Source of the DNA: Acidobacteriota bacterium
GTDB lineage: Bacteria > Acidobacteriota > Thermoanaerobaculia > Gp7-AA8
Direction: 5' to 3'
NCBI GenBank assembly: GCA_016184115.1
Contig: JACPDH010000002.1
Coordinates: 1-47,693 of the forward strand
Length of the DNA: 47,693 nucleotides
In this document: positions 24,277-39,170 of the stretch, one piece after another
Numbering within the stretch: position 1 is the first letter of the stretch
Layout: every line of letters starts with the position of its first letter
The notes under the pieces: generated by a model
What the model was told of the DNA's origin: nothing
Seen by the model: the letters and a program-made list of their open reading frames with translations, nothing else
Database searches by the model: none
Translations under genes and position numbers: made by a program

Positions 24277-24406
24277 GTTAGTTGTTCGTTGTTAGACGCG
24301 CGTCGGTGATTGCGCGGTCTCTGCTCGTCGCTCGAGGCGGCTGCGGGGCGGTCACCCGTCTCGCGCTGCCTGTCTAACAACTAACAACTAAAAACTAACA
24401 ACTCCC
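24277..24406. repeat. Heptad-phased inverted repeat, GTT arm then AAC arm
   Basis: The left arm (24277-24297) has three 7-bp units such as GTTAGTT, and the right arm (24372-24406) five such as AACTAAC. GTCTAACAACTAACAACT on the right is the reverse complement of the left arm with one mismatch. The 74-base centre is GC-rich. It fills the comM/glutaredoxin-like convergent gap. Confidence 0.8.
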
Positions 24407-30904: not shown

Positions 30905-30918
30905 CGTACCCATCAACT

Positions 30919-30953
30919 CATTTCGCGTTCCGCATTTCGCGTTTCGCGTTCTT
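30919..30953. repeat. Five heptad units with phased TTC
   Basis: Units such as CATTTCG CGTTCCG repeat in 7-bp phase for 35 bases, ending four bases before the dnaK stop. Only one arm is obvious. Confidence 0.7.
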
Positions 30954-30956
30954 CGC

Positions 30957-34934: not shown

Positions 34935-35849
34935 TTGCACATGTCCAGTCCCGTCCTCATCGCCCACCACCTCTCGAAGACGATCGGCGAGAAGACGATC
35001 GTCTCCGACGTCTCGTTCGAGATCGAGCCTGGAGAGGTATTTGGCTTTCTCGGTCCGAACGGCGCCGGGAAGACGACGACGATTCGAATGCTCGTCGGCC
35101 TCATCCGCCCCAGCACGGGCAACGTCACGATCTGCGGGCACGACGTCGAGCGCGAGTTCGAGGCGGCGCTGCGCAATGTCGGCTGCATCGTGGAGACGCC
35201 CGACCTCTACCGGTTCATGTCGGGGAGGGAGAATCTCGAGCACTTCGCACGGATGCGGCGCGGCGTTGGCGAGGCCGACATCGCGAGGGTCGCCGAGCTT
35301 GCGATGCTCAGTCATCGCCTCGAAGACAAGGTGCGCACCTATTCACTCGGCATGCGGCAGCGGCTCGGCATCGCGGTCGCGCTGCTGTCGCGCCCGAAGC
35401 TTCTCATCCTCGATGAACCGGCGAACGGGCTCGACCCGGCAGGCATCCGCGAGATGCGCAACCTACTTCGGCGCCTTTCGACGGACGACGGGCTCGCCGT
35501 ATTCGTGTCGAGCCACCTGCTCGCCGAAGTCGAGCTGATGTGCGACCGCGTGGCGATCATTCATCGAGGCACGATCCTCGAGACGAGTCCGGTGCAGGGC
35601 CTGCATGCGCACGCCCCCGAAATGGAGTTCCGCGTCGACGACGCCGCGAGAGCCATCGCGCTCGTCGAGTCGATGGGTTTTCCCGTGGCGGTCAACGACG
35701 GCACGTTGTCGATCGAGATCGCCGAGGAGCAGGCGCCTGACGTCGTCTTGCGGCTGGCGACCGAGGGAGTCAGGATCTTCCACGCGCAGCGCCGCATCCG
35801 CACACTCGAAGAACGCTTCATCGAAGCGACGGGGGGAGAGACGGTGTAA
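34935..35849 (+). CDS. ABC-2 type transporter ATP-binding protein
   Basis: It is a 304-aa ATPase subunit. Walker A is GPNGAGKTTT, the Q-loop region is VGCIVETPDLYRFMSG, the signature is YSLGMRQRLG, Walker B LLILDEPANGLDP and the H-loop VSSHLLAE. The C-terminal quarter is the extra domain common in DrrA/NatA-type subunits. I chose the TTG at 34935 because GAGG lies eight bases before it; ATG at 34941 is the alternative. The permease gene follows after a 199-base gap made almost wholly of 7-bp repeats. The substrate is unknown. Confidence 0.9.
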   Translation: MHMSSPVLIAHHLSKTIGEKTIVSDVSFEIEPGEVFGFLGPNGAGKTTTIRMLVGLIRPSTGNVTICGHDVEREFEAALRNVGCIVETPDLYRFMSGRENLEHFARMRRGVGEADIARVAELAMLSHRLEDKVRTYSLGMRQRLGIAVALLSRPKLLILDEPANGLDPAGIREMRNLLRRLSTDDGLAVFVSSHLLAEVELMCDRVAIIHRGTILETSPVQGLHAHAPEMEFRVDDAARAIALVESMGFPVAVNDGTLSIEIAEEQAPDVVLRLATEGVRIFHAQRRIRTLEERFIEATGGETV

Positions 35850-35853
35850 AGGC

Positions 35854-36042
35854 AGTGCTGAGTGCTAAGTGCTGAGTGCTGAGTGCTGAGTCCTGAGCAC
35901 TCATCACTCATCACTCAGTAGTCATCACTCAGTAGTCAGTAGTCAGTACCCATCACTCAGTAGTCAGTACTCAGTAGTCAGGACTCAGGACTCAGGACTC
36001 AGGACTCAGCACTCAGCACTCAGCACTCAGGACTCAGCACTC
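35854..36042. repeat. 27 uninterrupted 7-bp tandem repeats inside the ABC operon
   Basis: The array is 189 bases, exactly 27 units. It opens with AGTGCTG-type units (five), a transition AGTCCTG, then ATCACTC, AGTAGTC and related units, and ends with AGGACTC and AGCACTC. The first and last parts are reverse complements (AGTGCTGAG against CTCAGCACT), so the array could form a long hairpin. It starts four bases after the ATPase stop and ends six bases before the permease ATG. Confidence 0.95.
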
Positions 36043-36048
36043 GATTGC

Positions 36049-37020
36049 ATGATCGACCTCATCCGCAACGAAGTCCTCAAACTGCTCCGCCGGAGGCGGT
36101 TCACGATCGCGGTCGTGATCCTCGCCGTCATCTTGTCTGCCGTCACGTACGGACAGTACCGCCAGCTTCAATCGGCGAAGGACGGCGACTGGCGCGCACG
36201 AACGCAGCAGACCATCGTCCGATACCAGAACGCCATGCGGCGTGCGCAGGCCAACCCGACATGGGCGAGGTCGCTCCGGCTCGAGATCGCACGGCTGCAG
36301 TACTACCTCGACCGCGACATTCAACCAGACAAGCCGAATGCGCCTTACATCGTCCGGGCCTTTGCAAACATCGCGGGATTCCTCCTCTTGCCGCTGCTCG
36401 TGTCCGTACTCGCGAGCGACGTCGTTTCGGCCGAGCATGCTGAGGGTACCGACAAACTGCTGCTCACACATCCAGTTCGACGATGGCGCATCCTGACCTC
36501 CAAGCTCGCAGCCGTCTTTCTCTTCACCACGCTGCTCCTCTTGTGCGGCGCGCTGCTTGGATTCACGATCTCCTCGTTCGCGCTCGAATCGAGAGGATGG
36601 GGCGCGCCGACCTTCAGCGGCTTCCGGCTGACCGGTGAAACGGTCGACTTCGCGGCGGTCCGGCAGCTCCCTCTCTGGCAAGACACACTGATCGCCTACG
36701 GTCTCGAGTGGTATGCGCTCCTGATGGTCGCGTCGATCGCCGTGATGCTCTCGACGATCTTCCGTTCCAGCGCGGCGTCGATCGGCACGATGATGGCGGC
36801 GCTGATCGGTGGAACGATCCTCACCCGCCTAACACCAGACTGGATCGCGGGGAAATACTTCTTCGTTTCCGCGCTTCCTCTCGCCGACTATTACACCGGG
36901 CAGCCGCCTCCCTACGAGGGCATGCCGCTGCTTTTCTGCATCAGCCTTCTTGCAGTCTGGGCGGCCGCGGCGCTCATCGTCGCGTACGGCCTCTTCACGC
37001 GAAGGGACGTGTTCGGCTAG
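36049..37020 (+). CDS. ABC-2 type transporter permease
   Basis: It is a 323-aa membrane subunit. One helix lies at the N-terminus (RFTIAVVILAVILSAVTYG), then a periplasmic loop of about 70 residues, then five further helices (FANIAGFLLLPLLVSVLASD, LAAVFLFTTLLLLCGALLG, YALLMVASIAVMLSTIF, SIGTMMAALIGGTILT, ISLLAVWAAAALIVAYG). The cytoplasmic segment AEHAEGTDKLLLTHPVRRWR is the typical coupling region of this family. It pairs with the ATPase upstream. No ribosome site lies in the six bases between the repeat array and ATG; the array itself contains none. Confidence 0.88.
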   Translation: MIDLIRNEVLKLLRRRRFTIAVVILAVILSAVTYGQYRQLQSAKDGDWRARTQQTIVRYQNAMRRAQANPTWARSLRLEIARLQYYLDRDIQPDKPNAPYIVRAFANIAGFLLLPLLVSVLASDVVSAEHAEGTDKLLLTHPVRRWRILTSKLAAVFLFTTLLLLCGALLGFTISSFALESRGWGAPTFSGFRLTGETVDFAAVRQLPLWQDTLIAYGLEWYALLMVASIAVMLSTIFRSSAASIGTMMAALIGGTILTRLTPDWIAGKYFFVSALPLADYYTGQPPPYEGMPLLFCISLLAVWAAAALIVAYGLFTRRDVFG

Positions 37021-38891: not shown

Positions 38892-38903
38892 CAGGCGGGC
38901 CAG

Positions 38904-39124
38904 AGGTCAGAGGTCGTAGGTCGAAGGTCGAGGGTCGAAGGTCATAGGTCATAGCAGGCGGCAAGCTCGCAAGCAGAGAGGTTTTCGTACGGGCGACCCG
39001 CTGGGTCGCCCGTTGCAGTTTCGTGCAAGGGACGGCGTGCCGCGCCGCGTCGTCCGTCCGTGAGTCGGCCGGCTCGCCCTGCTGCCTGCGATGACCTTTG
39101 CCCTAGAACCTTTGCCCTCTGACC
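38904..39124. repeat. Heptad-phased element with internal palindrome upstream of typA
   Basis: Seven left units (38904-38952) such as AGGTCGA AGGTCAT are followed, 137 bases later, by five right units (39090-39124) such as TTTGCCC TAGAACC. Reversed, the right units again read AGGTCAT-like. Inward of each arm GCAGGC-like sequence is also inverted. A perfect 11-bp hairpin (ACGGGCGACCC / GGGTCGCCCGT, 38989-39013) lies inside. The element fills most of the 279-base gap before typA. Confidence 0.75.
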
Positions 39125-39170
39125 TGCTCCATCGGGAATCTATTGATCCCGCGTACGTTACCCAGCCCGC

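Follow-up and report, generated by a model that had tools for sequence, protein, structure and literature searches.

The operon described here raises the question of why the genes for the ATPase and the permease of an ABC transporter should be separated by 27 tandem heptads, which fill nearly the complete gap between them. The window, i.e. the whole stretch of 47,693 nucleotides analysed, had previously been annotated from its letters (first-pass annotation), and a change in the number of units of this array was thereby suggested to tune permease translation in a manner similar to phase variation. The features of the junction are:

34935-35849, plus strand: ATPase gene of the ABC transporter (PF00005), upstream of the array
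35854-35895, plus strand: left arm of the array, 6 heptads of the AGTGCTG type
35896-36042, plus strand: right arm of the array, 21 heptads of the AGCACTC type, the reverse complement of the left unit
35854-36042, no strand assigned: the whole element, an inverted heptad-array hairpin filling the intergenic gap, assigned on the basis of the predicted RNA fold and of family membership
36049-37020, plus strand: ABC-2 type permease gene (PF12679), downstream of the array

The coordinates, the unit size, the number of 27 units and the perfect phase of the array were all reproduced. Lag-7 identity over 35854-36042 was 0.83, compared to a mean of 0.253 (sd 0.038, maximum 0.46) for other stretches of 189 bases in the window. 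The annotated reverse complementarity of the array ends was correct yet understated, as the first 6 units are inverted with respect to the other 21 throughout; both arms are contiguous and in phase, with no spacer in between. Besides AGCACTC, the right arm contains the variants AGGACTC, ATCACTC, AGTAGTC and AGTACTC. Seven of 20 neighbouring units are identical in this arm (permutation P 0.037), a weak sign of local duplication. The RNA, whose folding the annotation had considered, is predicted to fold strongly (35825-36060, -113.7 kcal/mol; compared with dinucleotide shuffles, z -6.9), and the base of the predicted hairpin is located close to the stop and start codons of the flanking genes. 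A search of the array against Rfam gave no matches above the gathering score, and those below it were eukaryotic-type small RNAs.

Only 4 bp separate the array from the ATPase stop codon and 6 bp from the permease start codon, as annotated, so that the junction without the array would measure 10 bp, a typical value for the element family described below. It also holds true that the permease lacks an ordinary ribosome binding site, since no Shine-Dalgarno-like sequence is present directly in front of its ATG (GACTCAGCACTCGATTGC). The 3' end of the ATPase gene contains the Shine-Dalgarno-like sequence GGGGGAG followed by the stop codon TAA, and the array parts the permease from this internal GGAG. 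In some genomes of the same class, the corresponding GGAG of the ATPase gene directly precedes the permease start, as in G033 (GGGGGGGAGACCGTATGAGG), where the ATPase gene carries GGGGAG before an overlapping ATGA.

Matches to the permease gene were obtained in 16 of 18 genomes of the bacterial family and in 26 of 61 genomes overall. In most members of the class outside the family, e.g. G033, the ATPase and permease genes overlap or nearly adjoin, and in G004, G007, G015 and G018, which belong to the same order, the junction is short or overlapping and free of arrays. The class outgroup G039 exhibits a gap of 52 bp with a short heptad-like stretch. Arrays are present at this junction in G000 (the source genome), G001 (its sibling species), G003, G009, G010 and G012, and their units differ: AGTTGTT/AACAACT in G001, where the array is also predicted to fold (z -4.5), GGATGAA (8 units) plus TTCATCC (7 units) in G012, AAATTGA-type units in G010, octamers in G009 and a solo arm of three AGTGCTG units in G003. 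None of the relatives examined carries a gene of the S23 family (PF05635, 23S rRNA intervening-sequence protein) at this site.

The array is one of hundreds of comparable repeat pairs, each able to form a hairpin, in small intergenic gaps of this bacterium. A search of the source genome with the array region yielded 145 matches, many of them as minus-then-plus pairs 40-600 bp apart, with left arms of (AGTCCTG/AGTGCTG)n and right arms of (AGGACTC/AGCACTC)n. The identical layout was found with other unit classes (GGAATGC/GCATTCC, GTTGTTA/TAACAAC and GGTCAAA/TTTGACC). In a census of 762 kb of contigs from this genome, conducted with a home-made gene caller and TRF, we counted 92 intergenic arrays of period 7 (84) or 14 (8) and six further ones of period 10-12, none of period 5, 6, 8 or 9, and a single period-7 array in coding DNA. 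Among gaps of at least 80 bp, the 57 array sites comprised 20 of 59 convergent, 31 of 163 co-directional and 6 of 86 divergent gaps. The distance between an array and the nearest stop codon was 5 bp in the median (12 bp or less in 48 of 71 cases), that to a start codon 31 bp. At 23 sites with tight contact on both sides, the flanking genes would be 11 bp apart in the median if the element were removed.

Wherever a site has two arrays (32 sites), these are inverted relative to each other. The left arm is G-rich at 22 of the 32 sites, which is a tendency and no strict rule of GC-skew polarity. Unit numbers of left and right arms are uncorrelated (rho 0.08) and unit variants are correlated weakly and non-significantly, so concerted evolution of the two arms at the level of units was rejected. 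A common transposon-like core was rejected as well, only four similar pairs being detected among 47 unique spacers between arms. Neither a transposition event nor a target duplication or circular form was observed in this analysis. In viral contigs, a perfect array of four AGTGCTG units was present in 9 stretches, and no S23 gene was detectable at these loci.

Further elements were noticed in the window itself. An inverted heptad element (24278-24403; left GTTAGTTGTTCGTTGTTAG, right CTAACAACTAACAACTAAAAACTAACAAC) lies between convergent genes and has units of the class dominating in the sibling species G001, and an inverted AGGTCGA / TGACCTTTGCCCT element (38903-39125) is flanked by co-directional genes. 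An arm of the CATTTCGCGTTCCG type (30915-30955) adjoins the stop codon of a dnaK-like gene and has no clear partner. Elsewhere in the analysed material, the heptad elements L016:3955-4242 and L017:4533-4832, present at different loci, have a common core of 85% identity which is rich in GC-rich hairpins.

The units at a given site are subject to turnover. Ten alignable sites, picked for having an array in the source genome, were compared with the sibling species, and nine, including one with unlike arms in G001, have heptad arrays in both. The unit class differs at six of these nine. At the tenth site (L118:2095-2340) a GAACGAT-type array is present in G000 and no array in G001. The AGTNCT class amounts to 555 hits in G000 vs 78 in G001, the GTTGTT class to 74 vs 194. 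A different repeat, roughly 270 bp long and composed of inverted halves (TAGTGTAGTGTTTC...GAAACACTACACTA), is located at L031:5047-5320 of G000 (G000:C34). It shares up to 95-99% identity with stretches from G001 contig ends and looks like a MITE, and the corresponding site of G001 is occupied by a heptad element instead.

A link to S23 genes became visible in the source genome, which has five of them. Four are bracketed by inverted heptad-type arms (one set imperfect), and one of these bracketed genes separates a MacB-type ATPase gene from that of its permease, a setting like that in the window. At this MacB junction an S23 gene with AGTNNTG-type arms is present in eight genomes of the family (G000, G001, G002, G003, G008, G009, G011 and G016); the junction is S23-free and 13-58 bp long in G004, G013 and G017 (13 bp in G013, 17 bp in G017). 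The MacB junction of G012 (L344) is occupied by an unrelated long inverted repeat, near-perfect and free of heptads. In front of an asparaginase-like gene, arms plus S23 occur in G000 and G011 with different units, S23-free arms of heptads in G001 and of octads in G008, and neither arms nor S23 in G003, G006 and G015. From this comparison we conclude that cassette, solo arms and empty gap are states of one and the same site. In the bacterial family as a whole, the majority of S23 genes are flanked by inverted arms, with many different unit sequences. Many of the S23 genes in this family also share a promoter-like motif, CCGAGGTA(T)nnnT, immediately 5' of the start codon.

A scan of GTDB genomes provided 80 loci with a named S23 gene from Chloroflexi, Planctomycetota, Proteobacteria, Bacteroidetes, Firmicutes, Cyanobacteria, Acidobacteria, Verrucomicrobia and other phyla. 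The density of period-7 arrays was 12 times higher at distances of up to 350 bp from S23 (119 in 55 kb) than beyond (66 in 377 kb). TRF detected them on both sides of the gene at 44 loci, on one side at 18 and on neither at 18, some of the latter showing octads by eye. Inverted-repeat scores of the S23 flanks were above the 95th percentile of controls at 59 of 79 loci and above the 99th at 51 of 79. The dispersed arrays accompany the gene, too: ten S23-rich members of the class had 20 heptad arrays in 324 kb vs 1 in 322 kb for ten S23-free members, a small comparison of random pieces of up to 20 kb from 20 genomes of one class in which counts ignore kinship. The sampled pieces of four S23-rich genomes (G034, G040, G049 and G064) contained no filtered arrays.

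Taken together, the array in the window is probably a solo copy, lacking S23, of a family of inverted-heptad intergenic insertion elements whose arms are of the kind bracketing S23 genes. This reading draws directly on family membership, the inverted architecture in an intergenic gap (6 + 21 units), the location next to a stop codon, the array-free junction in outgroups, the differing unit classes and the statistical link to S23. The element is called solo because its arms are contiguous and no relative has an S23 gene at this junction; it is thus no complete cassette with S23 between the arms, and a spacer is missing. Like transposons and MITEs, the elements have filled and empty orthologous sites, but a conserved core between the ends was not found.

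Alternatively, selection might keep inverted heptad hairpins of any sequence as bidirectional structures that end transcripts or stabilise mRNA, similar to REP/BIME elements. The arms adjoining stop codons, the enrichment at convergent junctions, the invariable inversion of two-arm sites and the persistence of the hairpin through changes of unit class would all fit, yet this leaves unexplained the period of 7, the association with S23 and the presence within operons in front of a start codon. Moreover, arm lengths are uncorrelated, indicating that a precise stem is not maintained. We consider this alternative unlikely.

More doubtful still is a contingency locus, in which gain or loss of heptads alters the hairpin and thereby tunes or switches permease translation, as the first-pass annotation had proposed. 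The strong predicted hairpin, the missing Shine-Dalgarno sequence beside the permease ATG and the separation of the permease start from the ATPase-internal site speak for it, as does the Coxiella burnetii case, where the copy number of heptamers upstream of an S23 ORF varies among strains (PMC4990558). Since the ancestral coupling of the permease to the ATPase gene is interrupted by the array, permease translation could depend on array length. But a switch dedicated to the permease is not borne out: arrays of the family reside at dozens of unrelated junctions, most commonly convergent and rarely divergent ones, the same junction in relatives has other units or no array, and the two arms vary independently (rho 0.08). 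Phase variation by frame shift was rejected, since the array begins after a stop codon and ends before an ATG, i.e. between co-directional genes and not in a reading frame or promoter as is typical for contingency loci. A phase-variation effect of another kind is possible and has no specific support. Elements of this family occupy dozens of junctions, with the highest frequency at convergent ones, where no start codon follows, so an insertion with side effects is a better reading of the array than a switch. Permease expression is likely to be affected as a by-product; any regulatory purpose would be hypothetical.

Least probable of all are plain microsatellites that arise by slippage in place, the second arm being a copy made through hairpin template switching, with no element involved: local runs of identical units (P 0.037), unrelated spacers and independent arm lengths agree with this, but not the absence of periods 5, 6, 8 and 9 among the intergenic arrays of the census, the co-occurrence with S23 over many phyla, the genome-specific amplification of a few unit classes and the scarcity of arrays in S23-free members of the class.

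For the insertion-element reading, the following course of events may be envisaged. Within this bacterial family, the element would have entered a junction at which the ATPase and permease genes lay close together or overlapped, its copies spreading as elements, with S23 or a partner presumably acting in trans on the arms. Identical neighbouring units and independent arm lengths suggest that each arm gains and loses units by slippage; over longer times, the unit sequence of a site may be replaced wholesale. The insertion could be tolerable because the hairpin in the transcript would keep the stop and start codons close, only 10 nt apart if the array is looped out.

No nuclease, recombinase or other catalytic activity is known for S23, a small helical bundle. 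S23 proteins form pentamers of four-helix bundles (PMC4990558; PDB 2GSC is a relative). A farther-reaching idea, which we put forward tentatively and do not expect to hold in full, is that of a bacteria-wide class of mobile elements with self-renewing tandem-heptad ends, the sequence of which can change: the S23 pentamer together with host enzymes might recognise the hairpin structure instead of a fixed sequence, seed arms at stop codons and leave solo arrays behind as non-autonomous footprints. If the link between heptad arrays and S23 is right, S23 or 'four helix bundle' genes, common small genes of unassigned function, would receive a candidate role, and the existence of tandem repeats with a period of 7 in bacteria would have a reason. 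At fixed sites, the sequence between genes would then be replaceable wholesale while the hairpin form persists. The tempting view of such arrays as gene-specific switches would be corrected as well.

Several known systems exhibit part of these characteristics. REP/BIME elements are short inverted hairpins adjoining stop codons, present in many copies and non-autonomous. The elements described here consist of tandem heptads and are linked to S23, whereas a REP is a short palindrome and the associated protein is a RAYT transposase. The STRR heptamers of cyanobacteria are dispersed intergenic tandem heptads like ours; in the literature searched, they are not reported as inverted pairs linked to S23. 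TAACTGA heptads of Beggiatoaceae, Cyanobacteria and Bacteroidetes are intergenic as well, with many arrays per genome and indels in multiples of seven, and relatives have shorter, array-free junctions, too (PMC4679880). In Beggiatoaceae, though, most are short direct repeats preceding start codons; a single unit sequence was studied, and one inverted case and no link to S23 are reported (PMC4679880).

In the P6b stem of the Nostoc trnL group I intron, which is made of complementary heptads, motif classes have been swapped wholesale and repeatedly at a fixed site (PMC4476775). The Class II motif NNTGAGT matches the unit in the window (GCTGAGT); the Nostoc heptads are confined to one intron stem, and neither S23 nor dispersal over the genome is described there (PMC4476775). 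A further system is the intervening sequence (IVS) in 23S rRNA, e.g. of Coxiella burnetii, an insertion with an S23-family ORF inside and inverted-repeat ends forming an RNA stem; the ORF is preceded by 3-4 tandem GACAGAT heptamers, whose number depends on the strain (PMC4990558). The array in the window likewise has terminal inverted repeats predicted to form an RNA stem (z -6.9). However, the IVS resides in a 23S rRNA helix and is excised by RNase III, whereas the present arms lie between protein genes, here those of an ABC transporter, and are two-sided heptad arrays mostly without an S23 gene. In the open-access literature searched, we found no paper that connects inverted heptad arrays with S23 genes located outside rRNA. 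Intergenic heptad arrays had been noted piecemeal in cyanobacteria, Beggiatoa, Nostoc introns and the Coxiella IVS, with no shared cause given. Our data join these cases: S23 genes are flanked by heptad arms across phyla, and in the genomes sampled the dispersed arrays accompany S23.
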